Assembly (NCBI RefSeq): GCF_004116725.1
Contig: NZ_PDKG01000003.1
Span: 124,001 to 188,000 of the forward strand
DNA length: 64,000 nucleotides
Source of the DNA: Arcobacter sp. CECT 8986
GTDB lineage: Bacteria; Campylobacterota; Campylobacteria; Campylobacterales; Arcobacteraceae
Reading direction: 5' to 3'
A model generated the notes under the pieces. It saw only the letters and a list, made by a program, of their open reading frames with translations. It did not search any database and had not been told where the DNA came from. Made by a program: the position numbers and the translations under genes. Below, piece after piece: positions 5,352 through 17,194 of the stretch. How positions within the stretch are numbered: position 1 is the stretch's first letter; every line of letters begins with the position of its first letter.

Positions 5352-5849
5352 ATGGCGACAGCACTATTTTATGCAAGTAGCACTGGAAATACTGAAGAAG
5401 TAGCACAAAAAATTGCAGATAGATTACAAGGAATTGATACTTTCAATATAAGTGATAAAAGTATAGAAAATATAAACAATTATGAAAAGTTAATAATCGG
5501 TACTCCAACTTGGGGTGAAGGTGATTTACAAGATGACTGGGATGAAAAGTGGGATGAGTTTTGTTCACTTGATTTAAGTACAAAAACAATTGCACTTTTT
5601 GGTTTAGGTGACCAAGATAGCTATGGTGATGAGTTTTGTGATGCATTGGGAATAATGTATGAACAAATAGAAAAAGCTGGTGCAAATATAGTTGGTTTTA
5701 CATCAACTGATGGATATGAGCACGAGTATTCAAAAGCACAAATAGATGACAAATTTGTTGGATTAGTTATTGATGAAGATAATCAAGATGATTTAACAGA
5801 TGAAAGAATCGAAAACTGGACAAATCAAATAAAAAATGACATCTTATAA
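5352..5849 (+). CDS. fldA: Flavodoxin (first of three tandem copies)
   Basis: A 165-residue long-chain flavodoxin, an FMN electron carrier that can replace ferredoxin under iron limitation. The phosphate-binding loop is SSTGNTE (about residues 9-15). The FMN-ring loops are TPTWGEGDLQDDW (about 55-67) and GLGDQDSYGDEFCDA. It is the last gene of the Fur-box operon, 14 bases after the previous stop, and is followed by a terminator. In Campylobacterota flavodoxin also serves pyruvate:acceptor oxidoreductase. The start follows AAGGAG with a rather long 10-base spacing. Confidence 0.95.
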   Translation: MATALFYASSTGNTEEVAQKIADRLQGIDTFNISDKSIENINNYEKLIIGTPTWGEGDLQDDWDEKWDEFCSLDLSTKTIALFGLGDQDSYGDEFCDALGIMYEQIEKAGANIVGFTSTDGYEHEYSKAQIDDKFVGLVIDEDNQDDLTDERIENWTNQIKNDIL

Positions 5850-5871
5850 ATAAGCCAATTTTGGCTTATTT
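5848..5871 (+). terminator. Terminator after first flavodoxin
   Basis: AAATAAGCCAA (5848-5858) and TTGGCTTATTT (5861-5871) form an 11-pair stem beginning at the stop codon. The U-run is only TTT, so efficiency is uncertain, but the position fits the operon end. Confidence 0.65.
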
Positions 5872-5971
5872 AATTCTGCAATAAACTTCTACACTTTAAC
5901 TGAATAATTTATACTAATCTTAAATTTTTTTATCATAATATATAATAATTATAAATTTATAAGGAGCTAAC

Positions 5972-6481
5972 ATGACTACGGCAATATTTTATACAAGTCA
6001 ATGTAATCACGCAAAAGGTGTTGCAGAAAAAATTTCAAAAGCATTTGATGAGATTCGCATATTTGATATTGCAGTTACAGGTAGCGAATATATAAATGAT
6101 TTTAAACATATTATATTTGGTGTATCAACTTCAAATCATGGAGAAATGCAAAAAGATTGGCAGAAAATTTGGGATGATTTTAAAGATATCAATTTCAAAG
6201 GTAAAACTGTTGCAATTTTTGGTTTGGGTGACCAAACTAATTATCCAGATGAATTTGCAGATGCAATGAAATATGTTTATGATGACTTGCTAAAAAGTGG
6301 TGCAAATATAATTGGCTTTACATCAACTGATTCATATAACTTCAACTCATCAAAAGCAGTTATTGAAGATAAATTTGTTGGTTTAGTTATAGATGAAGTT
6401 AATCAATCACACCTTACAGATAAAAGAATTCAAGAGTGGGCAGACAAAATTAAAGAGGATTTACAACACGAGTCTTCTTAA
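5972..6481 (+). CDS. Divergent flavodoxin-like protein lacking the FMN phosphate loop
   Basis: A 169-residue flavodoxin paralogue with the same length and core as its neighbours (IFGLGDQTNYPDEFADA, DKFVGLVIDE near the end). The SSTGNTE phosphate loop is replaced by SQCNHAKG, and the TWGEGDLQDDW loop by TSNHGEMQKDW. The residues that hold FMN phosphate and cap the ring are therefore lost, although the fold appears intact and the frame is open. It may bind another cofactor or partner, or be a non-redox decoy. AAGGAG gives a good ribosome-binding site. A weak Fur-like sequence lies at 5940-5954 (11 of 14). Confidence 0.85.
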   Translation: MTTAIFYTSQCNHAKGVAEKISKAFDEIRIFDIAVTGSEYINDFKHIIFGVSTSNHGEMQKDWQKIWDDFKDINFKGKTVAIFGLGDQTNYPDEFADAMKYVYDDLLKSGANIIGFTSTDSYNFNSSKAVIEDKFVGLVIDEVNQSHLTDKRIQEWADKIKEDLQHESS

Positions 6482-6570
6482 TTTTTTATTAACAAAAAAC
6501 CGACTTTTTTTAAATAAGACATATTTTATCCTATTTCATTAAAATTACAAAAAAATATAAAGGATAATCT

Positions 6571-7074
6571 ATGGCAACTGCTATATTTTACGCAAGTAGT
6601 ACAGGAAATACAGAAGAAGTAGCAACTAAAATTGCAGAAAAACTTGATATTACTACACTTTTTAATATAAGTAACAATCAAAAAGATATAAATAAAATTT
6701 CTGAATATGACAAACTAATCTTAGCTACATCAACTTGGGGTGATGGAGATTTACAAGATGATTGGGATGAAATTTGGGAAGATTTCAAACAAATTGATTT
6801 TTCTGATAAAACAGTTGCACTAGTTGCACTTGGAGATCAAGATGGATATGATGATACATTTGTAAATTCACTTGGAACAATGTATGAACAAGTAGTTGAA
6901 CAAGGTGCAAATGTAATTGGATTTACTTCTACTGATGGTTATGATTTTGAAGAATCAACTGCTGTAAAAGATGATAAATTTGTTGGATTAGTTATTGATG
7001 AAGATAATCAAGATGATTTAACTGATGAAAGAATTGATAACTGGACAGATGAAATTAGAAGTGAAATTATTTAA
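6571..7074 (+). CDS. Flavodoxin (third tandem copy)
   Basis: A 167-residue canonical long-chain flavodoxin with the FMN phosphate loop SSTGNTE (about residues 9-15), the ring loops TSTWGDGDLQDDW and ALGDQDGYDDTF, and the same C-terminal VIDEDNQDDLTDERI as the first copy. Close similarity to the first copy suggests duplication, with the degenerate middle copy arising from the same event or an older one. It has its own 89-base upstream gap, so separate transcription is possible. It ends at a bidirectional terminator facing fur. Confidence 0.93.
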   Translation: MATAIFYASSTGNTEEVATKIAEKLDITTLFNISNNQKDINKISEYDKLILATSTWGDGDLQDDWDEIWEDFKQIDFSDKTVALVALGDQDGYDDTFVNSLGTMYEQVVEQGANVIGFTSTDGYDFEESTAVKDDKFVGLVIDEDNQDDLTDERIDNWTDEIRSEII

Positions 7075-7100
7075 ATATTAAGGATTATTCCTTAATATTT
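7073..7100. terminator. Bidirectional terminator between flavodoxin and fur
   Basis: AAATATTAAGG (7073-7083) and CCTTAATATTT (7090-7100) are exact reverse complements with a six-base loop. The element overlaps the stop codons of both convergent genes, so it probably ends both transcripts. Confidence 0.75.
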
Positions 7101-7542
7101 ATTTACTTTGACAATCTGTGCAAATTCCATATAATTGCATTGAGTGACTTGTAATTTTAAATTTATTTTTCTTTGCTATTTTATCTTGTCTTTTTTCTAT
7201 CTCATCATCTAAAAATTCTACTATTTTTCCACAAGATGTGCAAATTAAATGATCATGGTGAGATTTTGCATTACTTTCGTATTTTTTACCTTCTGTTCCA
7301 AAAGCAATAGATGCTATAAGGTCAACTTCTTCTAAAAAACCAAGAGCTCTATATACCGTAGCAATACCGATATTTGAATCAGGATATTTTTCTTTGATTT
7401 GATTATAAACTTCTTCTGCACTTAAGTGATCTTCTGCGTTTATAAGAATATCTAGAACAATTTCTCTTTGTTCTGTGTATTTCAAACCTTTTTGTTTTAC
7501 GATTTTTTTAAGTTCTTCTATTACTTCTTCATTATTTGCCAT
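7099..7542 (-). CDS. fur: Ferric uptake regulator Fur
   Basis: A 147-residue iron-responsive repressor. The winged helix lies in residues about 1-85, with recognition helix GIATVYRAL. The metal/dimer domain holds KSHHDHLICTSCGKIVEF, a distal QLYGICTDC that gives the second CXXC zinc pair, and the regulatory His/Glu residues. It matches Campylobacter Fur more closely than PerR, notably KYTEQRE and IAFGTEGKKYE. It is convergent with the third flavodoxin and is the most likely ligand of the Fur boxes nearby. A second paralogue is at 16617-17063. Confidence 0.93.
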   Translation of the reverse strand: MANNEEVIEELKKIVKQKGLKYTEQREIVLDILINAEDHLSAEEVYNQIKEKYPDSNIGIATVYRALGFLEEVDLIASIAFGTEGKKYESNAKSHHDHLICTSCGKIVEFLDDEIEKRQDKIAKKNKFKITSHSMQLYGICTDCQSK

Positions 7543-7625: not shown

Positions 7626-7835
7626 TTATTTTTCTTTTAGTTTTTTTCTCTTCTTGTCAGGTTGATAAAGCATATGATGCCACAACGCAAAACCACAGAA
7701 TGCAGCACCTGCAATTATATGAGTTCTTTTAGCAAATTTATTTTTCATAAACATAGAAGTTACTACCGTAGCTCCCAAAGTTGCAGTCATTCCAACTTTT
7801 GCAACTTCTTTTTTTACTTCTGCATCAACTTTCAT
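7626..7835 (-). CDS. Small two-helix membrane protein downstream of the ferrosome-like block
   Basis: A 69-residue protein with two hydrophobic segments (about 11-30, VAKVGMTATLGATVVTSMFM, and 38-54, HIIAGAAFCGFALWHHMLY) and a Lys/Arg-rich tail. The WHHMLYQP motif at the end of helix 2 could bind heme or metal. The frame is open to a TTG at 7865, but ATG 7835 with AAGGA upstream is preferred. It overlaps the preceding small gene by 11 bases, so they are coupled. Fur boxes lie upstream of the pair. Context suggests an accessory of the iron compartment, but the function is unproven. Confidence 0.65.
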   Translation of the reverse strand: MKVDAEVKKEVAKVGMTATLGATVVTSMFMKNKFAKRTHIIAGAAFCGFALWHHMLYQPDKKRKKLKEK

Positions 7836-7944
7836 TCCTTTTCTTCCTTCTTTGTCTTCTTTCAATAGTTTTTTTTGTACCTTTTAATGTTTCATAAGTT
7901 AAAGCTACTGTTAACGCTGTTGCTAATGGTAAAAGAAATGGCAT
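7825..7944 (-). CDS. 39-residue single-helix membrane peptide behind Fur boxes
   Basis: A short frame with an excellent ribosome-binding site (AAGGAG, 8 bases before the ATG). It has a hydrophobic N-terminal helix (MPFLLPLATALTVALTYETL) and a strongly basic tail (KKTIERRQRRKKRNES). It overlaps the next membrane-protein gene by 11 bases. Two Fur-type boxes (7959-7973 and 8005-8019) lie directly upstream, so the pair is likely iron-repressed. It lies just downstream of the P-type ATPase gene on the same strand. No family was recognised. Confidence 0.65.
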   Translation of the reverse strand: MPFLLPLATALTVALTYETLKGTKKTIERRQRRKKRNES

Positions 7945-7958
7945 ATAAATACTCCTTA

Positions 7959-7973
7959 TGATAATGTATATCA
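7959..7973. promoter_or_regulatory. Fur-like box (proximal) before the small membrane gene pair
   Basis: TGATAATGTATATCA has one perfect half-site and 5 of 7 in the other. It lies 14 bases before the ATG of the 39-residue peptide, close to its ribosome-binding site. Confidence 0.55.
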
Positions 7974-8004
7974 ATATTATAACTATTGATAGTTTAAAGT
8001 AAAC

Positions 8005-8019
8005 TGATAATAATTATCA
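8005..8019. promoter_or_regulatory. Fur box (perfect 7-1-7) after the P-type ATPase gene
   Basis: TGATAATAATTATCA, identical to the box at 2436-2450. It lies between the ATPase stop (8036) and the small membrane gene pair. These two genes can therefore be transcribed separately under Fur even if they also belong to the longer transcript. Confidence 0.85.
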
Positions 8020-8035
8020 TAATAAGAATTATAAG

Positions 8036-10144
8036 CTATTTTTTTACACCTCTTATTGAATTTAAAAGTAAACCAATTGTTGTACCATTGTGTAGTACTG
8101 CTGTAACAATAGGAGAAAATGCTCCCAGTGTTGCTCCACCTAAAATTGCTGAATTTATTCCAACTGTTGCTTTAAAATTAGTGTTTATCAAATTCATTGT
8201 TTTATTTGATAACTCTTTTGCTTGAACAACGGCATCAATATCATCTTTTAGTAAACTTACATCTGCTGTTGCTTTTGCTATATCTGCACCTTTACTCATA
8301 GAAATTCCCACATTTGCAGAGATTAATGCTGGTGCATCATTTATTCCATCTCCTACAAAAGCAACATTTCTTCCTTCATCAATCATTTTTTTAACAATTG
8401 ATGCTTTATCAGTTGGTAATAACTCAGAATAAACCTCATCAACACCTAACTCTTTGGCTACCATTTGTGCTTTTTTCTCAACATCACCTGTTAACATTAC
8501 AATATGATTTACACCCAATTGTCTTAATTTTTCAATTGATTCTTTTGAATTACTTCTAATTTGATCAGCTAAAGCTATTGTTCCTAATAATTTACCATTA
8601 AAACCTATATATAATAGAGTCTTACCTTCATCTAAACTTTTATTTATTCTATCTTTATGTTTAGAGAAATCAATTTGTTCATCATCTTCTAAGAAATGTC
8701 TACTTCCAATTACTACAAGTTTACCTTCAACTTCTGTTTTTACACCATGAGCTACAATAAATTCAACTTCTTCATGGTGCATATGCACAAAACCTCTTTG
8801 TTTTGCAGCTTTTACAACAGCTTCTGCAACTGGATGAAAATAGTGTTCTTCTGTACTTGCTGTAAGATTTAATAACTCTTCTTCTGTCCACTCTTCATCA
8901 TAAGATGCAACTTCGATTACTTCTAAATCACCTTTTGTCAAAGTTCCAGTTTTATCAAAAATAAATGTATCTACATTTGATAAAGCTTCAATTGATTTAG
9001 CACCTTTAATCATTATTCCATCATGACCAGCTTTTGAAATTGTTGATTTAAAAGCAACTGGTGTTGCTAATTTTAAAGCACAAGAGTAATCTGCTTGTAA
9101 AATAGAAGCAACTCTTTCAAAATCTTTAGTAAACAAATATGAAATACCAGCTAAACCTAAAGTAACAGGAACTAACTTATCAGCTAATCTTGTTGCTTTT
9201 AATTGCACTGATGATTTTTCATTTAATGAGCTTTCAATATAGTGTTTTATTCTTTGTGTTGCTGTATTTGCTCCAACATGCTCTGCCCAGATTTTTAATC
9301 TCCCCTCTTCCAAAACAGTTCCAGAGATAACTCTATCTCCTCTTTGTTTTTTTATAGGTTCTGCTTCACCCGTCATAGATACTTGATTTACGCTTGCATC
9401 ACCATGTACAATATGCCCATCAACTGGTATTGTACTACCTGCTGCAACAACAACTATATCTCCAACTTCAATATTTTCAGTCTCTACTAATACTTCAACT
9501 TTTTTACCATTTTCGTCTGTTTTTTCTACCCATGCTTCTTTTACATTTGGTTTTGATAACTCTTTTAGTAAATCATCACTTTTATGTACAGTAGTCTCTT
9601 CTATGTATTCACCTAACTCTAACATTGCATTTGTTGAGTTTGCAGCTAAATAATCTCTTCTATAAACAGAAATACCAACAGCAGCACTTTCTAATACTTT
9701 TGAAGTTAATCCCTCAGTAAATAGCTCTTTTGTACCTTCCATTAACATAGGAATAGCAGCAGTTGTTGTTATTGTCGCTTTTGCAAGGTTATTGTTTATA
9801 AATCTTTCAGCAATCAAAGCACCACTTGCTCTTGCTACACCAGATAAACTTGGTTTTTCACTACTTACACAATTTACACAAACTGCATTATCTACACAAT
9901 CTGTTGATAATAAATCATCTAGTGTAAGTTTTCTTAAAACATCTTCGATATTCTCTTTAATATCTTCAACAATATTAAAAACAACACTATATGCTTTTTT
10001 ATTTATACGTACACTACTAACTCCATCAATATTTTCTAAATAGGATTTCAAGATATTTTCATCTATAAAATCCTCTTTTAAAAGCAGATATTTATATCTT
10101 AATCTTGAAGGAGTTTCATGAACTATTTTAAAATTTTTATTCAT
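8036..10144 (-). CDS. fezB: P1B-type ATPase with SCALKLATP motif, FezB (ferrosome) type
   Basis: A 702-residue metal-translocating ATPase. In order: N-terminal TPSRLR (11-16); a Cys cluster C83/C89/C92; actuator TGEAEP (258-263); membrane motif SCALKLATP (354-362) where Cu/Zn pumps have CPC; phosphorylation site DKTGT (397-401); HP (437-438); and hinge GDGINDAP (598-605). The SCA variant and the Arg-rich N-terminal motif fit the P1B-6 group, whose FezB members make ferrosomes (lipid-bounded iron granules) in Desulfovibrio, Shewanella and Rhodopseudomonas. It is the last of six tightly packed genes that include a ferritin-like protein. The iron role and the symbol are inferred from motif and context; ordinary iron or heavy-metal efflux is the alternative. 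Confidence 0.75.
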   Translation of the reverse strand: MNKNFKIVHETPSRLRYKYLLLKEDFIDENILKSYLENIDGVSSVRINKKAYSVVFNIVEDIKENIEDVLRKLTLDDLLSTDCVDNAVCVNCVSSEKPSLSGVARASGALIAERFINNNLAKATITTTAAIPMLMEGTKELFTEGLTSKVLESAAVGISVYRRDYLAANSTNAMLELGEYIEETTVHKSDDLLKELSKPNVKEAWVEKTDENGKKVEVLVETENIEVGDIVVVAAGSTIPVDGHIVHGDASVNQVSMTGEAEPIKKQRGDRVISGTVLEEGRLKIWAEHVGANTATQRIKHYIESSLNEKSSVQLKATRLADKLVPVTLGLAGISYLFTKDFERVASILQADYSCALKLATPVAFKSTISKAGHDGIMIKGAKSIEALSNVDTFIFDKTGTLTKGDLEVIEVASYDEEWTEEELLNLTASTEEHYFHPVAEAVVKAAKQRGFVHMHHEEVEFIVAHGVKTEVEGKLVVIGSRHFLEDDEQIDFSKHKDRINKSLDEGKTLLYIGFNGKLLGTIALADQIRSNSKESIEKLRQLGVNHIVMLTGDVEKKAQMVAKELGVDEVYSELLPTDKASIVKKMIDEGRNVAFVGDGINDAPALISANVGISMSKGADIAKATADVSLLKDDIDAVVQAKELSNKTMNLINTNFKATVGINSAILGGATLGAFSPIVTAVLHNGTTIGLLLNSIRGVKK

Positions 10145-10156
10145 AAAATATCTTTT

Positions 10157-10507
10157 TTATTCTTGATTTGATTCCATTGCAGCTTTAGCATCTTCCATTC
10201 TCTCTTTCATCTCTTCCATTCCAGCTTGAAAAAGTTGAGTTCCTTTTGATACTGCTTTCATTATATTTTCTTGTGCACCTTTATTTGTAAGAAAATAAGT
10301 AACTGCTGCACCAATTAATGCTCCTTTTACAAAATCACCTGTACTAAAACTATTTTGTGCTTGAGTTTGTTGTACTGGATTATTATTTATATTAGCAGGT
10401 TGATTGATATAAGGATTTTGATTTAAATTAACATCTTGTTGTTGTGCTGCTCTTGTATTCTCAATATTCATATCATACATATTTTGATTGTTGTTTTGAT
10501 TCATCAT
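10157..10507 (-). CDS. Asn/Gln-rich small membrane-associated protein, YtxH-like
   Basis: A 116-residue protein in two parts. Residues about 1-55 are extremely Asn/Gln-rich and disordered. Residues about 58-116 have a glycine-bearing hydrophobic segment (FVKGALIGAAVTYFLTNKG) and then an amphipathic helix (AGMEEMKERMEDAKAAM), as in YtxH-like proteins. It lies 12 bases before the ATPase gene and 2 bases after the previous gene. Small hydrophobic coiled-coil proteins of this kind accompany FezB in ferrosome operons, where they may shape or coat the vesicle. The function is inferred. Confidence 0.7.
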   Translation of the reverse strand: MMNQNNNQNMYDMNIENTRAAQQQDVNLNQNPYINQPANINNNPVQQTQAQNSFSTGDFVKGALIGAAVTYFLTNKGAQENIMKAVSKGTQLFQAGMEEMKERMEDAKAAMESNQE

Positions 10508-10509
10508 TT

Positions 10510-10875
10510 TTAGTTATCCTCTTGAATTAAAATATCTTCATTTTGTTCTTCTATCTCTTCATACTTTGTATCAAGTTTTTCATCTATTACCTCAACTGCG
10601 TAAATACCAGCCATACCAACACTTAATGCTGTTAAAGCTTTAAGCCAACCACCTTGACCAATATGATTTGCTGTTGCGATTGCAGTTCCAGTTGCGATTG
10701 CACCTTGAGCTGTTTTTTTAACAGTATCTTTTACTGCATCTTTAGAAGATATTTTTGCATCTTTTGCTTTTTTATAGTTTATTGTTCCTGATACAACTGC
10801 ACTTGCAACTGCACCACTTACAATATGTCCTACTACGTTTCTTGGTTCACCAGTATTAATTATTCTGCTTTGCAT
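10510..10875 (-). CDS. Small glycine-rich membrane protein of the ferrosome-like operon
   Basis: A 121-residue protein with two Ala/Gly-rich hydrophobic segments, about 15-34 (GHIVSGAVASAVVSGTINY) and about 75-97 (GWLKALTALSVGMAGIYAVE), and an acidic tail. The small-residue pattern recalls membrane-packing proteins of magnetosome and ferrosome compartments, though no firm family could be assigned. The gene overlaps its upstream neighbour by 16 bases. AAGGAT supplies a ribosome-binding site inside that neighbour. Confidence 0.7.
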   Translation of the reverse strand: MQSRIINTGEPRNVVGHIVSGAVASAVVSGTINYKKAKDAKISSKDAVKDTVKKTAQGAIATGTAIATANHIGQGGWLKALTALSVGMAGIYAVEVIDEKLDTKYEEIEEQNEDILIQEDN

Positions 10876-11147
10876 TCTTCTTCATCCTTTTTTTCTATTT
10901 GCTCAACTACTTTTTCTTTTTCTTGTAATTTTCTTGCTTCTTTTTTCTCTTTGATACACTCTTTTGTAGCTTCAACTGTATCTTTTACATCTGCAACTAC
11001 TTCTTTACCTTGCTCTACTTTTGAACATGCAAAATCTTTAGATTTTCCAAAAACCTCTTTTGCTTTATCTTTTACTGAAGAACTATTTTTTAATGCATAA
11101 ACTACTCCTGCTCCAACTGCAAGACCTGCTATAAATGGTAATGCCAT
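10860..11147 (-). CDS. YtxH-like single-helix coiled-coil protein of the ferrosome-like operon
   Basis: A 95-residue protein. An N-terminal hydrophobic, glycine-rich helix (about 4-20, PFIAGLAVGAGVVYALK) is followed by a long charged coiled coil to the end, with Cys near residue 40 and in the last residues. The plan of a hydrophobic N terminus plus coiled coil fits YtxH-like proteins and is the layout described for small ferrosome-associated proteins. AAGGAG lies six bases before the ATG, three bases after the ferritin-like gene. Confidence 0.7.
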   Translation of the reverse strand: MALPFIAGLAVGAGVVYALKNSSSVKDKAKEVFGKSKDFACSKVEQGKEVVADVKDTVEATKECIKEKKEARKLQEKEKVVEQIEKKDEEECKAE

Positions 11148-11150
11148 AAT

Positions 11151-11825
11151 TTACTCCTTGTTTGTTTGTGTATAACTATTTAAAAAAGCAACTAATGCTG
11201 CACCAAACCCAGCTCCACTAATCATAGAGATATTTAATTTACTTAAAAGCTCAGTAATTTTATTTTGGTCCATATTCCCTGAAGCAATATCTTCTAAAAG
11301 CATTTGATATTCATTTGCTTTATTCATCATATCTTCAACACTATTTAGACTTGTTGATTCATTTACACCATTATAGTGATTTAAAACACACTTTCTAAAT
11401 GCTGGAAGGTGATTATTGTAAGATGCTGCTTGCAATTTAAATAAAATATCTTTAATATCTGGTTGCTTTGTATTTGCAATCAAATCATCATACATTGCGA
11501 TATTATTTATCTCATTTGCAACACCAAGCTCACAACACTCAATATATGTATTTGGAACTTCTATTTTATCTGCCCAATCATTTATAGGAACTTCTACATT
11601 ATACTTTTGTAATAAAGGCATCAATGCACTATAATGTACAGCTTCTGCTTCTTTTATATTTACAAAAGGATAAATTGCACCAAACTTCTCTATAATTTTT
11701 GTATATGACTCATATGCTTTAAACTCATCATATACAGCAATTCTTAATACTTGTGATTCAATAGCTTGGTCACTATTTAAATCAACTCTTTGAGAAAGAA
11801 GTATATTTTCATCAAGATTAGCCAC
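11151..11825 (-). CDS. Ferritin-like (DUF2202-type) diiron protein with hydrophobic C-terminal tail
   Basis: A 224-residue protein. Residues about 20-155 match the DUF2202 ferritin-like four-helix bundle: E34 in DEFKAYESY, E61 and H64 in EAEAVHY, E105 in ANEINN, then MYDDL and H139 in NNHLPAF, which are plausible diiron ligands. Residues 203-216 (SGAGFGAALVAFLN) form a glycine-rich hydrophobic tail that could anchor it to membrane. The start is GTG (11825), with a near-perfect GGAGGTGAT upstream; it overlaps the preceding stop (TAGTG). A ferritin-like protein tied to a FezB-type ATPase points to iron oxidation or storage on a membrane compartment. DUF2202 activity is not well defined. Confidence 0.78.
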   Translation of the reverse strand: MANLDENILLSQRVDLNSDQAIESQVLRIAVYDEFKAYESYTKIIEKFGAIYPFVNIKEAEAVHYSALMPLLQKYNVEVPINDWADKIEVPNTYIECCELGVANEINNIAMYDDLIANTKQPDIKDILFKLQAASYNNHLPAFRKCVLNHYNGVNESTSLNSVEDMMNKANEYQMLLEDIASGNMDQNKITELLSKLNISMISGAGFGAALVAFLNSYTQTNKE

Positions 11826-12139
11826 TACATCACCTCCTTCGCTAGATTATTTATTATTTGAGTTATCTCTTCTAAATTCTGCTTATTTATTAAATCTTCC
11901 CAAACTTGAGGTTTGAAAATATTTGCATCATAAGTAATAGTTACTGAAGCAATTATTTTATTTATTTTTATACTTTTTATTCCATTAATTTTTTTTGGTA
12001 AGTTTTCTATATCTTCTATTGATATATTTTCACTCTCTTTTTTAATTTTTGGATTTACTCTAACTCTCAATCTTCCAGGAGTATGAGCAATAATTGTAAA
12101 GTAACCTGCTATATTTATTATATCTTCTGTTTTTATCAA
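11825..12139 (-). CDS. Small HMA-like protein with HTPGRLRVR motif, FezC-like
   Basis: A 104-residue soluble protein. Residues 19-27 read HTPGRLRVR, the motif that opens HMA_2-type domains and that recurs in degenerate form at the N terminus of the ATPase (HETPSRLR). The rest has the beta-alpha-beta pattern of heavy-metal-associated domains (IKSIKINKIIASVTITYD) but no CXXC. Small HMA-like proteins accompany FezB in ferrosome operons. The start is TTG with AAAGGA six bases upstream; no in-frame ATG lies near. It is the first gene of the six. A weak Fur-like site (11 of 14) lies at 12200-12214. Confidence 0.7.
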   Translation of the reverse strand: MIKTEDIINIAGYFTIIAHTPGRLRVRVNPKIKKESENISIEDIENLPKKINGIKSIKINKIIASVTITYDANIFKPQVWEDLINKQNLEEITQIINNLAKEVM

Positions 12140-12207
12140 AAATAATCCTTTAATATGATAGTTTTACTAAATAAAATTTAAGCTTACCTTAATATAGATT
12201 TAAACTC

Positions 12208-12236
12208 ATTATCAAAAAGGCTATCTTTTTGATAAT
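12208..12236 (-). terminator. Hairpin terminator after the diguanylate cyclase gene
   Basis: ATTATCAAAAAG (12208-12219) and CTTTTTGATAAT (12225-12236) form a perfect 12-pair stem with a five-base loop, starting four bases after the cyclase stop. It separates that gene from the ferrosome-like operon on the same strand. There is no long U-tract beyond the stem. Confidence 0.65.
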
Positions 12237-12239
12237 ATG

Positions 12240-14075
12240 TCATATTAGACAAACTCTATTTCTTCCCTCTTTTTTAGCTTGATATAAAGCCTCATCTACT
12301 CTTTTATATACATCTTCAAAACTCTCATCTTTTTTACAAAAAGTAACACCTAAACTAATAGTAATATTAATATGAAGCTCTTCATAATTAAAAGTACTGC
12401 TCATAATTTTCTTTCTAATTCTGTTGGCAATATTTTCAATATTATTATCACTTCTATCATCTAGTAAAATAATAAACTCTTCTCCACCAAATCTTCCTAA
12501 AATATCATCTTTATGAAGACTTGATTTTATAACTTTTGTTAAATCTTTTAAAATACAATCACCAATATAATGTCCATATGTATCATTTATATTTTTAAAA
12601 TAATCTATATCAAAAATAATCAAACAAAAATCTTGCATTTGTAACCAATACTTTAAAATTGAAGTAATTGCACTTTTATTATATGCAGTTGTTAACTCAT
12701 CTGTCATCGCTTTTTGTTCTAGAGTATAAATCTTTTCATTATATTTTGATACATCATTCATACAAATAAGATACTTTTTCATATCTATTTTTCTAACATC
12801 AAAGATAAAATATCTATCGCTATTCTCTATTTTTAGTTTTACTGGATTTTCATAGGATTCATATTTTTTAGCAAAATTAATTAAACTTGATTGAATAGAA
12901 TCATCAATTAAAGCAATATTTGTCAAAAAATGCTCTTTTGTTTTAAATAAATCTATAAACTTTTTATTTGCACTTTCAATATCTTTTCCATCAGTAATTA
13001 GAATAATATCTTTTTGTGTATCAAGAACTGATTGTAAAAAATCTCTCTCTTTTTTAAGTTTTTCATGTTGTTTTGTATTTATAGATTTAAGCATTTCATC
13101 TATTTTTTTACCTAAAAATGTTAACTCATCATTGTACTTTAACTCTATTTCTAATTGTAAAGTATTTAAATTTGATACATTATTTATATGATTTATAAGT
13201 GTAGTTATCCTTTTTGAAAATATTTTATTTATAAAAAGATATATTACAACAATAACTAATATAAAAGTGAAAATAAGTATATAAAAAATAGTACTATTAT
13301 TATCATTTATCTGAATAAAATAATCTCTATTTATCTTCATACTTATAAAAAAATCACTATTATTTATCTCATCTTTAAATTTTATATGTGTAAATATCTC
13401 ACTTTCATTTACTCTATTTATATCATATATATAATTTTGTGATTCTATTTTTACTCTTTTTTTATCTTCTAATAATTTATAAGTTGGAATATAAGAGATA
13501 TAATTATGTGAAATTTTACTTAGACTTGATAAAAAAGAGGAATCAAGTGTTCTTCCTATAAATATATAACCTACTATTTTATTGTCTTTTTTTATCTGTT
13601 TTATTGTAAATAAAACTTTTTCATAATCTAAAGTAATAAGATTTACTCTATTTGTTTTATTTATATACATATTAATATTGTTATTTTTTATAAAATCATT
13701 TAATTTTGAAGGAGCAGATATAAACTCATCTGAACTTATATCATAAACATTTCCATATAAAAAATTTTTGTTTTTATCAAATAGTATAAAATGTGAATAT
13801 CTATCTTTTATGAAATCTTTTTTATAAGATTTGATTTTGTTTGAAACAATTAGATTTATTAGTTTATCATTTGTTGAGTACTCATAAGCAATCTCATTTA
13901 GAAAATCCACTTTTGTATAAAGTGCATCGAAGAAAATTTTTATACTTTTATTTACTTGAGTATTTTCAAACTCTATTGTCTTTTTATTACTCTTTTCTAA
14001 AACAAAAAAAATACAAAAAGAAAGAACCACACAAATTGAGATAAAAAATATTGATATTTTTGTTGATATTTTCAT
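12240..14075 (-). CDS. Membrane-bound diguanylate cyclase (periplasmic sensor-GGDEF)
   Basis: A 611-residue protein that makes cyclic di-GMP. A transmembrane helix lies near 6-25, followed by a periplasmic sensor region of about 230 residues, a second helix near 263-283, a linker with coiled coil and a PAS-like segment, and a GGDEF domain in the last 165 residues. The active-site motif is GRFGGEEF, so it should be catalytic. The usual inhibitory RXXD five residues before it reads HKDD, so product inhibition may be lost. Its start lies 55 bases from three Fur boxes shared with divergent feoA, making iron control possible. Confidence 0.9.
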   Translation of the reverse strand: MKISTKISIFFISICVVLSFCIFFVLEKSNKKTIEFENTQVNKSIKIFFDALYTKVDFLNEIAYEYSTNDKLINLIVSNKIKSYKKDFIKDRYSHFILFDKNKNFLYGNVYDISSDEFISAPSKLNDFIKNNNINMYINKTNRVNLITLDYEKVLFTIKQIKKDNKIVGYIFIGRTLDSSFLSSLSKISHNYISYIPTYKLLEDKKRVKIESQNYIYDINRVNESEIFTHIKFKDEINNSDFFISMKINRDYFIQINDNNSTIFYILIFTFILVIVVIYLFINKIFSKRITTLINHINNVSNLNTLQLEIELKYNDELTFLGKKIDEMLKSINTKQHEKLKKERDFLQSVLDTQKDIILITDGKDIESANKKFIDLFKTKEHFLTNIALIDDSIQSSLINFAKKYESYENPVKLKIENSDRYFIFDVRKIDMKKYLICMNDVSKYNEKIYTLEQKAMTDELTTAYNKSAITSILKYWLQMQDFCLIIFDIDYFKNINDTYGHYIGDCILKDLTKVIKSSLHKDDILGRFGGEEFIILLDDRSDNNIENIANRIRKKIMSSTFNYEELHINITISLGVTFCKKDESFEDVYKRVDEALYQAKKEGRNRVCLI

Positions 14076-14129: not shown

Positions 14130-14190
14130 TGATAATCATTATTAGTTGTAAATCATTATCAATTTTATAAATATTTGAAAATTATTATCA
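14130..14190. promoter_or_regulatory. Cluster of three Fur boxes between the diguanylate cyclase gene and feoA
   Basis: Three 7-1-7 sites: TGATAATCATTATTA (14130-14144, 13 of 14), TGTAAATCATTATCA (14147-14161, 12 of 14) and TGAAAATTATTATCA (14176-14190, 13 of 14). A candidate feoA -10, TATAAT, follows at 14221-14226. This is the densest Fur-site array in the window and fits iron repression of feoAB, possibly reaching the divergent cyclase gene. Confidence 0.85.
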
Positions 14191-14258: not shown

Positions 14259-14480
14259 ATGAAATTAAGTGAGCTTAACAAAGGAGATACAGGGATTATA
14301 TTGTCATTAAACTGCGATAGTTCTTTAAAAAATAGATTTTACTCTTTTGGTATTACAAAAAACACAGAAGTTTATATTGAAGAAGTAACATTAACAAAAA
14401 ATACTATTGAAGTTAAAATAAATAATACAAAAGTTGCCATAAGATTATCAGAAGCTGCAAAGATTGAGGTAAAAAAATGA
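14259..14480 (+). CDS. feoA: Ferrous iron transport protein A
   Basis: A 73-residue SH3-like cytoplasmic partner of FeoB. It has the normal FeoA length and pattern: KGDTGIILSL near the start, then LKNRFYSFGITKNTEVYI and a C-terminal VAIRLSEAAKIEV. Its stop overlaps the feoB start (ATGA). AAAGGATTTTAA precedes the ATG, and three Fur boxes lie upstream. Confidence 0.92.
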   Translation: MKLSELNKGDTGIILSLNCDSSLKNRFYSFGITKNTEVYIEEVTLTKNTIEVKINNTKVAIRLSEAAKIEVKK

Positions 14481-16588
14481 AAAATGAAAAGATTATTAAG
14501 ATTGCATTAGTTGGTCAACCAAATGTTGGTAAGAGTATGCTTATCAACTCTATTTCAAATGCAAGACTTAAAGTAGGTAATTTCTCTGGTGTAACAGTTG
14601 CAAAAGAAGAAGTTATCTTTAAATACAAAGATTATAGAATTGAAATAGTTGACTTACCAGGTTCTTACTCTTTAAATGATTATACATTAGAAGAAAGAGT
14701 AACTAAAGAATTTTTAGAAAATGAAAATTATGATATTATCTTAAATGTATTAGACTCTACAAACTTAGAAAGAAACTTATATTTAACATCTGAATTATTA
14801 GCCTTAGATAAAAAAATGATATTAGCATTAAATATGTCAGATGAAGCAAATAAAGAGAATATTTCTATAAATGCAGAACAATTAAGTAAGATTATTGGAA
14901 AACCTTGCGTAAAAACAAGTGCTGCAAATAAGACAGGAATTGATGATTTAATTCATCAAATTGTAAAAAAATATGAAAATGAAAAACTTCCAACAAAACT
15001 AATTTTTTCTGATGTAATAGAAGAAGAGATTTCAAATATTGTTAAGATTTTCAAAGAATCAAACTACAAAACAGATTCAACGTATAGAGAAATAGCTATT
15101 AAACTTCTAAAAGAAGATAAAAAAACTTATAAATTCTTCCATGATGAACCAATATGGACAAAACTTCAACCAGTTTTAAATGAAGCATTTGAACATATTT
15201 CAATTCACTATGATACAAAAGATATGGAAGATATCTTCAATGATGAAAAATTCTCTTTTTCTAAAGGGATTGTAACTGAAATTGTAACTGAGAAAAAAAA
15301 TAAAAAGAAAACAGTAACTGAAAAAATAGATGCCATACTTATTCATAAGTTTTTTGGTCTTCCAATATTTCTATTTTTAATGTGGGGATTATTCCAATTA
15401 ACTTTTGATATTGGTAATATTCCAATGGATATGATTGATGCATTTTTTGCAAGTTTAATTGATGGTACAAAAGAACTTCTAGGAGATAATCAAATCTCTT
15501 CTATTATTGCAGATGGTGCAATTGCCGGTGTTGGAGCTGTTGTTTTATTTATTCCAAATATTGTGATACTATTTTTTGGAATTGCATTATTAGAAACAAC
15601 AGGTTATATGAGTAGAGTTGCATTTTTACTTGATGGATTTTTTCATAAGTTTGGACTACATGGAAAATCATTTATTCCTTTAGTTACAGGATTTGGATGC
15701 TCAGTTCCTGCATATATGGCAGCAAGAACTTTAAAAAATGAAAGAGATAGACTTCTAACTCTATTTATTATAGGATTTATGTCTTGTGGAGCTAGGTTGC
15801 CTATTTATGTACTATTTACAGGTGCTTTTTTTAGTGAAAAAAATGCAGGAAATATTCTATTTTTAATCTATATTGGTGGTGCACTATTAGGATTAATAGC
15901 TGCAAAAGTATTAAAAGTAGTTGTATTTAAAAGTGAAGATGAGCCTTTTGTAATGGAGATGCCAAAATATAGATTACCTTCAAGTAAATTAATATGGCAT
16001 ACAGTTTCAAATCAAGCTATGATGTATCTTAAAAAAGCTGGTACATTTATTTTAGCAGCATCACTACTTATTTGGGTAGCAAGTAATTATCCTAAACATC
16101 CAGAAGTAGAAGCATCATTTAACCAAAAAATTGAATTAGCACAAACAGATGAAGAAAAAGATGCACTTGCAAATGAGTTATCTTTATATAATCTTGAAAA
16201 CTCATATTTAGGTTATGTTGGTAAATTTTCTGAACCTTTATTTGCTCCTTTAGGATTTGATTGGAGAATGTCAGTTGCTCTTGAAACAGGACTTGCTGCA
16301 AAAGAGATTGTTGTATCAACACTTGGAATTTTATATGGACTTGGAGATGATAATGATGAGAACTCAAAAGGTCTAATAGAAAAAATCAAAAATAATATCT
16401 CAATGCCAGCTGGTATTGCATTTATTGTATTTGTAATGATTTATCTTCCTTGTTTAGCAGCAACAATGGTATTTACAAGAGAAGCAGGTGGATGGAAATA
16501 TTTAGGATATTTATTTGTATTTACAACAGGAACAGCGTGGGTGTTATCATTTATAACATTTAATCTAGTATCAATGTTAGTAGCATAA
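14477..16588 (+). CDS. feoB: Ferrous iron transporter B
   Basis: A 703-residue inner-membrane Fe2+ transporter. The N-terminal G domain holds the P-loop GQPNVGKS (13-20), the switch region GNFSGVTVAKEE and DLPGSYSL (G3). A helical insertion follows, then a membrane domain with the two Gate segments, including FGCSVPAYMAARTLKNERDR and ETGLAAKEIVVSTLG. Length is typical of FeoB. It overlaps feoA by four bases. This is likely the main anaerobic or microaerobic Fe2+ supply that would feed the ferrosome-like compartment. Confidence 0.96.
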   Translation: MKNEKIIKIALVGQPNVGKSMLINSISNARLKVGNFSGVTVAKEEVIFKYKDYRIEIVDLPGSYSLNDYTLEERVTKEFLENENYDIILNVLDSTNLERNLYLTSELLALDKKMILALNMSDEANKENISINAEQLSKIIGKPCVKTSAANKTGIDDLIHQIVKKYENEKLPTKLIFSDVIEEEISNIVKIFKESNYKTDSTYREIAIKLLKEDKKTYKFFHDEPIWTKLQPVLNEAFEHISIHYDTKDMEDIFNDEKFSFSKGIVTEIVTEKKNKKKTVTEKIDAILIHKFFGLPIFLFLMWGLFQLTFDIGNIPMDMIDAFFASLIDGTKELLGDNQISSIIADGAIAGVGAVVLFIPNIVILFFGIALLETTGYMSRVAFLLDGFFHKFGLHGKSFIPLVTGFGCSVPAYMAARTLKNERDRLLTLFIIGFMSCGARLPIYVLFTGAFFSEKNAGNILFLIYIGGALLGLIAAKVLKVVVFKSEDEPFVMEMPKYRLPSSKLIWHTVSNQAMMYLKKAGTFILAASLLIWVASNYPKHPEVEASFNQKIELAQTDEEKDALANELSLYNLENSYLGYVGKFSEPLFAPLGFDWRMSVALETGLAAKEIVVSTLGILYGLGDDNDENSKGLIEKIKNNISMPAGIAFIVFVMIYLPCLAATMVFTREAGGWKYLGYLFVFTTGTAWVLSFITFNLVSMLVA

Positions 16589-16616: not shown

Positions 16617-17063
16617 TTATTGGCAATCTTCACATAATCCATAAATAGTCATTATGTGATCACCTAAAATAAAGTTATTATTTTTTGCAACTTCTTTTTG
16701 TTGCTCTTCTATTACATCATCATTAAATTCTATAATTTTACTACAAGATGTACAAATCATATGGTCATGGTGTAAAGATATATTTAACTCATATCTTTTA
16801 GCTCCATCTCCAACATCTAGCGATTTTACTATGTTTAACTCTTCGAAAAATTTAACTGTTCTATATACTGTTGCAATTCCCATATCTATTTTATATTTTT
16901 GTTTTGCAATAGTCACTATATCTTCTGCACTTAAATGCTCATCTGTAAAATATAAAATTTTTAGAATATAATCTTTTTGATTAGAGTTTTTTAGTCCTAA
17001 TTTTGAAACAGTCTTTTTAAAATTATTTAAAAAAGATTCAAAACTCTCTTTATGTTTTTCCAC
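16617..17063 (-). CDS. Second Fur-family regulator
   Basis: A 148-residue Fur paralogue. It has the same recognition helix as the first (MGIATVYRTV), the metal site LHHDHMICTSCSKIIEF and the distal IYGLCEDC zinc pair. The start is taken as GTG at 17063, with AAGGA eight bases before it; the frame is open further upstream, but that part overlaps a better small gene. Shared recognition residues suggest it can see similar boxes. It is convergent with feoB and translationally linked to a 42-residue membrane peptide. Whether it senses iron, peroxide or another metal is not decided by sequence. Confidence 0.9.
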   Translation of the reverse strand: MEKHKESFESFLNNFKKTVSKLGLKNSNQKDYILKILYFTDEHLSAEDIVTIAKQKYKIDMGIATVYRTVKFFEELNIVKSLDVGDGAKRYELNISLHHDHMICTSCSKIIEFNDDVIEEQQKEVAKNNNFILGDHIMTIYGLCEDCQ

Positions 17064-17065
17064 GA

Positions 17066-17194
17066 CTAAAGTCCTTTTAATGCAATTATTAATAATCCTA
17101 AAAGAAAACCGCCTGCATATACTTTCCATAAGAAGCTATGCATTCGTTGATTATGCTTATAAAGAAATCCTTGTTTTGGGCTTAATCTTTTCAT
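17066..17194 (-). CDS. 42-residue membrane peptide coupled to the second fur gene
   Basis: A basic N terminus (MKRLSPKQGFLYKHNQRMH) is followed by one hydrophobic helix (WKVYAGGFLLGLLIIALKGL). AGGA lies seven bases before the ATG. The stop is two bases from the GTG of the Fur paralogue, and the AAGGA that serves that GTG is inside this frame, so translation is coupled. A Fur box (17258-17272) lies upstream. No family was recognised; a role with the regulator or with iron membrane machinery is inference. Confidence 0.65.
   Translation of the reverse strand: MKRLSPKQGFLYKHNQRMHSFLWKVYAGGFLLGLLIIALKGL

Follow-up and report, generated by a model that had tools for sequence, protein, structure and literature searches.

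Genomic evidence for a ferrosome-type (fez) operon with a ferritin-like member in Arcobacter sp. CECT 8986

The window analysed here, a 64,000-nucleotide (nt) stretch of contig NZ_PDKG01000003.1 of Arcobacter sp. CECT 8986 (positions 124,001 to 188,000), holds what is, as known from its genes alone, a real operon of the fez (ferrosome) type, and the favoured reading, held with good confidence, is that this operon is controlled by Fur and serves to build ferrosomes. These membrane-enclosed bodies, in which iron is stored, have only lately been recognised as a class of bacterial organelle and are demonstrated in few species. The reading draws on the clade and motifs of the ATPase FezB, the gene layout, profile matches of the small proteins, a probable FezC half, kinship with MamC, a ferritin fold with a putative anchor, gene linkage and Fur boxes. 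As a preliminary description of the sequence had stated, six packed or overlapping minus-strand genes with recognisable motifs run from window position 12139 down to 8036. In transcription order these encode an HMA2 domain protein of 104 amino acids (aa) with the motif HTPGRLRVR (11825..12139, TTG start); a 224-aa DUF2202 ferritin-like protein (11151..11825), whose GTG start overlaps the preceding HMA2 stop by 1 nt; a 95-aa single-helix coiled-coil protein, FezA/YtxH-like by profile matches (10860..11147); a 121-aa MamC-like two-helix membrane protein (10510..10875), overlapping the 95-aa gene by 16 nt; a 116-aa N/Q-rich protein with a glycine-zipper helix, YtxH-like by profile matches (10157..10507); and a 702-aa FezB-type P1B ATPase (8036..10144), identified by family model, motifs and phylogeny. 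The 1-base and 16-nt overlaps fit a single transcript, and among 28 relatives of the same family and order nearly all preserve the gene order. Two further minus-strand genes lie downstream, encoding a 39-aa membrane peptide (7825..7944) and a 69-aa two-helix protein, the likely cytochrome half of FezC (7626..7835), with the likely true starts, 7944 and 7835, chosen from ribosome-binding sites and orthologue lengths.

Membership of the fez type was judged by clade, motifs and shared neighbours, with related organisms standing in for Rhodopseudomonas palustris, Shewanella putrefaciens, Desulfovibrio magneticus and Clostridioides difficile. The 702-aa protein is a heavy-metal P1B ATPase (NCBIfam TIGR01525) that carries DYSCALKLATP, a C-terminal HNGTT and an N-terminal HETPSRLR, and these features are retained, with small changes, in Azospirillum and more distant relatives. 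CPC is absent and is replaced by the SC-A/P-x-K motif that defines the P1B-6 type (FezB), while the arginine-containing HMA2 domain (R-x-R) at the FezB N-terminus has H14, R19 and R21 invariant in eight diverse FezB sequences. In a tree of 70 P1B sequences, with Shimodaira-Hasegawa-like approximate likelihood ratio test (SH-aLRT) support from a quick search, the window ATPase fell within a 36-row HMA2/SCxxK clade (SH-aLRT 96) rather than with the Cu, Zn and Cd pumps; clustering with Cu, Zn or Mn exporters was what the preliminary description had named as speaking against its proposal. The CPC-type Cu/Zn/Cd pumps, three of them from the host genome, stand outside this clade. One group within the clade joins Campylobacterota with alpha- and gammaproteobacteria (25 rows, SH-aLRT 99), and the other joins Mailhella (Desulfovibrionaceae) with Clostridia and methanogens (SH-aLRT 100). 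A P1B pump for another metal (Mn, Zn or Co) with no link to iron is extremely unlikely: although the substrate is not readable from sequence with certainty, the separation from the CPC pumps, the ferritin-fold protein in the operon, and the neighbouring Fur boxes, feoAB and pair of fur genes all argue against it. Three same-family relatives carry a second P1B ATPase directly upstream of the fez operon (L040:5457-7610, L043:3365-5551 and L047:5812-8004), with an SCPC[AS]T motif, an IHIGHT tail and R-V-R near the N-terminus, and these form a separate long-branched clade in the tree. The FezB frame is split into 308- and 324-aa pieces in one relative (G034, L033:7601-9700).

Profiles of the Campylobacterota operon families were searched against 3,325 open reading frames (ORFs) from other phyla. 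Those of the small proteins match genes beside FezB-type ATPases, answering the earlier question of whether the small proteins have Fez relatives, and together with the ATPase clade this supports the proposal of a Campylobacterota version of the fez operon. In alpha- and gammaproteobacteria the 116-aa profile picks up the gene that directly precedes FezB (E 1e-14 to 2e-23); the best E is 1e-14 for the HMA2 family profile and 8e-10 for that of the MamC-like 121-aa family. The 95-aa family reaches 6e-6, and in Mailhella (7.8e-5) and Lachnospiraceae (2e-4 to 7e-4) its profile matches the immediate upstream neighbour of the ATPase, which there is a DUF6110 protein. All small-protein matches lie at most 4.5 kb from FezB, and most at most 1 kb, a closeness that is a weak control because the loci were centred on FezB. 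The 39-aa peptide was found in 16 rows, from close relatives only, and its profile found no relatives among the ORFs of other phyla. Matches between the small proteins and Pfam families such as SARAF and DAK2 were judged to be noise.

The layout can also be compared with known systems. Grant et al. 2022 reportedly described six-gene fez operons in R. palustris and S. putrefaciens, likewise six packed genes ending in the FezB ATPase. Operons of at least six genes in Azospirillum and Rhizobiales hold a gene set similar to that of the window; the alphaproteobacterial loci read (Azospirillum L054, Rhizobiales L158-L163) have HMA2, MamC-like and YtxH-like genes in similar order but, unlike the window, no ferritin-like domain. 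The fezABC or FezX-A-B type of D. magneticus and C. difficile, read as Mailhella L089 and Coprococcus L066, shares with the window a FezB with SCxxK and an upstream DUF6110 FezA-like gene; in Mailhella FezC lies downstream, and in Coprococcus a Fur-family gene adjoins FezB. This type differs from the window in having only two or three genes and in forming a separate subclade (SH-aLRT 100), and no MamC-like or ferritin-like gene was found in it.

Three parts of the operon were passed over in the preliminary description: the MamC kinship, the cytochrome half of FezC and the membrane tail of the ferritin-like protein. The 121-aa protein matches the NCBIfam MamC model NF038051 (E 8e-7) across most of its 97 positions, as do 21 of the 24 members of its family, and alphaproteobacterial (Rhizobiales) fez homologues match the same model with E down to 2.4e-12. 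In a test of chance or composition as the source of the match, none of five shuffled copies matched. Like MamC (Mms13), the 121-aa protein has a loop joining two membrane helices, and in MamC this loop is an acidic, magnetite-interacting piece (PMC6206293). However, the score of 29.3 bits is far under the equivalog cut-off of 100 and the interhelix loop, NYKKAKDAKISSKDAVKDTVKK, is basic, so that by its sequence the 121-aa protein is to be regarded as a relative of MamC and not as a MamC.

The 104-aa protein matches PF19991 above the Pfam cut-off (E 1.1e-9), and HTPGRLRVR is preserved in 26 rows of its family. In Azospirillum and Hahella, HMA2 is fused to DUF4405, and it is with the C-terminal half of these fusions that the 69-aa protein aligns. 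The motif H-x3-G-x2-[FL]-x6-H (H-x13-H) is common to the 69-aa orthologues and the fused proteins, with a chance rate of ~3 matches in 4,390 short ORFs on shuffling, and the identical H-x13-H spacing is readable in the FezC of Mailhella. DUF4405 was matched weakly, below the cut-off, by 13 of 17 members of the 69-aa family, and the predicted structure is a helical hairpin (predicted local distance difference test score, pLDDT, 76). Because the 69-aa gene aligns and shares its motif with the helices of the fused proteins, FezC appears in these Campylobacterota to be split over two genes, with the 69-aa protein as the two-helix part apart from HMA2, whereas in Azospirillum the two are joined; the 104-aa protein could be the soluble half of this split FezC-like protein or, alternatively, an additional HMA2 protein of the Fez set. 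FezC behaves as a b-type cytochrome and has been modelled as a haem-binding homodimer (PMC10979944). In two other loci (L040:11868-12506 and L061:8416-9018), FezC-helix homologues are fused to a SpoIIAA-like domain (PF11964).

The 224-aa protein matches PF09968 (DUF2202) with 22.8 bits, narrowly over the cut-off of 22, and 21 of its 27 relatives match the same family. In the AlphaFold2 (AF2) model residues ~20-151 form a four-helix bundle with pLDDT mostly >95; the top Foldseek match is MJ0754 (3q4n, E 3.6e-5), and the model has VIA Z ~16-17 to bacterioferritins and 3q4r. The ligand residues E34, E61, H64 and H139 are at least 90% conserved and E105 is invariant, and the ExxH and single E and H ligands of MJ0754 (PDB 3q4n-3q4r), which has a ferritin fold, align with those of the window protein, placing it in the ferritin superfamily by both fold and ligands. 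Kinship with EncFtn or encapsulin cargo was rejected, with EncB at 18.3 bits against a cut-off of 90 and weak PDB matches. The window protein differs from MJ0754 in its location in a fez operon and in an extra C-terminal glycine-zipper tail, a proposed Fez membrane anchor at residues ~165-215 (11181..11333, minus strand) with a hydropathy of 1.74 at residues 197-215. Members of the family likewise carry a glycine-rich hydrophobic segment C-terminal to the bundle. A profile of the tail alone found its best matches among the ORFs of other phyla in Fez proteins (L161, 4.7e-5; L056, 8e-5), the top ones being alphaproteobacterial proteins with a low-complexity N-terminus in place of the ferritin domain, and a profile of the ferritin domain found no match among the same ORFs. 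This suggests a domain swap in which a ferritin domain was grafted onto a Fez membrane anchor, which is the newest part of the findings and also the least certain, given a short tail modelled at low pLDDT. In the papers searched, no link between DUF2202 and ferritin-like proteins and no mention of MJ0754 was found, and the novelty of the ferritin-like and MamC-like Fez proteins is provisional.

Within Campylobacterota, FezB is present in 101 of 298 genomes, or about a third, and the ferritin-like profile was matched in 100. The two genes lie on the same contig within ~4 kb of each other in 95 of the 101 FezB genomes, as counted by eye from two match tables; six FezB genomes had no ferritin-like match and five genomes had weak, unlinked ones. 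The host genome appears, from profile searches, to be without classical ferritin, bacterioferritin or Dps, its only ferritin-family match being of 22 bits. These two observations favour an alternative in which a fez operon has been repurposed, with iron stored by the ferritin-like protein, a ferritin either soluble or membrane-bound, to which the membrane parts do no more than deliver it. This is nevertheless very unlikely, as intact FezB and small genes are conserved over deep branches, the tail resembles a membrane anchor rather than part of a cage, and no DUF2202 protein is known to form cages. The earlier claim that this version of the operon adds a ferritin-like protein stands against all the non-Campylobacterota fez loci read, with one exception: a metagenome-assembled genome labelled Gammaproteobacteria (L061, JADGDG010000031.1) holds a Campylobacterota-type operon with the ferritin-like gene, by either transfer or misbinning. 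The gammaproteobacterial sample gave one further match in 321 genomes. A complete fez operon including the ferritin-like gene is present on a 133-kb plasmid of Arcobacter sp. DSM 115972 (CP129951.1, L055), where genes for an integrase and a HipA toxin lie within a few kilobases of it.

The fez block is flanked, as first described, by feoAB and two fur genes: feoA and feoB at 14259..16588 on the plus strand (feoB by TIGR00437, 632.8 bits; feoA from the sequence itself), fur at 7099..7542 on the minus strand (PF01475, E 7.5e-43), and a second, 170-aa fur-like ORF at 16617..17129 on the minus strand, with orthologues ~41-49% identical to Fur. Fur boxes were scored over 14 positions against the consensus TGATAATnATTATCA and compared with 300 shuffles. 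A perfect box, TGATAATTATTATCA (8005..8019, minus strand, 14/14), precedes the two distal genes, the 39-aa gene lying behind it, and places the fez cluster under iron (Fur) control; a second box, TGATAATCATTATTA (14130..14144, plus strand, 13/14), precedes feoA, and no shuffle reached either score. The preliminary description was thus right about the two small distal genes but had placed more than one box ahead of them, where there is one clear one. Ahead of the main operon lies a probable box, TGATAATGAGTTTAA (12200..12214, minus strand, 11/14), a score reached by 8.7% of shuffles, and the corresponding site is located ~60 nt upstream in many orthologues with scores up to 13/14. In C. difficile the fez genes are repressed by Fur, according to a 2025 review that also urges checking other pathogens and commensals for ferrosomes (PMC12574912).

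These sites also bear on the possibility of iron efflux, in which the ATPase would sit in the cytoplasmic membrane and export excess Fe(II), the ferritin-like protein would act as a buffer in the cytosol, and there would be no organelle. P1B pumps usually export metals, and the computed data leave the membrane location of FezB unfixed. However, boxes of the feoAB type suggest expression at iron scarcity rather than excess, simple efflux offers no obvious task for the small MamC-like, FezA-like and FezC-like partners, and the related R. palustris operon RPA2333-2338 makes ferrosomes (PMC12016538), such that efflux is unlikely.

Under the favoured reading of a ferrosome-building operon, iron starvation would cause Fur to release the main operon, the two distal genes and feoAB, and Fe(II) entering the cell via FeoB would be pumped by FezB, seated in a lipid vesicle, into the vesicle lumen. 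The arginine-rich HMA2 domains may serve as cytosolic metal or regulatory modules, and the glycine-zipper proteins (FezA-like, MamC-like and YtxH-like) may give the vesicle membrane its shape and stability. The 69-aa half of FezC would hold haem between two helices of a dimer and, by passing electrons through the membrane, would set the Fe(II)/Fe(III) state, and the ferritin-like protein, tethered to the vesicle membrane by its Fez-type glycine-zipper tail, would oxidise Fe(II) at its metal site. Several points weigh against this reading. The evidence comes from genes and not from cells, and likeness to the characterised Fez proteins is known through the sequences of related organisms only. 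For single members, the DUF4405, YtxH and DUF2202 matches do not rise above the curated cut-offs or barely reach them. The resemblance of the anchor extends over only ~45 residues and may in part come from a glycine-zipper composition common to both sides; the tail has low confidence in the structure model; taken alone, the main-operon Fur site is weak (p 0.09); and many fez-positive relatives also carry an ordinary ferritin, so that fez is not simply a replacement for it.

A more specific proposal, tentative and held at slightly under even confidence, is that in Campylobacterota a ferritin-fold oxidase domain fused to the membrane-anchor module of the ferrosome oxidises iron at the vesicle membrane as FezB loads it, which would make a hybrid between a lipid organelle and ferritin chemistry, and that the MamC relative links ferrosomes and magnetosomes by descent. 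If the ferritin-like partner acts at the vesicle membrane, it would be a candidate ferrosome oxidase and a genetic handle on mineral formation, and two iron stores thought to be separate, ferritin and ferrosome, may here work as one machine. The FezC split and the MamC kinship are concrete, testable parts, with a possible evolutionary bridge to magnetosomes.

Among the neighbouring genes, three tandem long-chain flavodoxin genes (5352-7074) adjoin fur and the fez block, which fits an iron-starvation island, and in the clostridial fez locus L063 a flavodoxin also lies directly downstream. Between feoAB and the fez operon lies a membrane GGDEF (diguanylate cyclase) gene (12240-14075), whose position is kept in several relatives.

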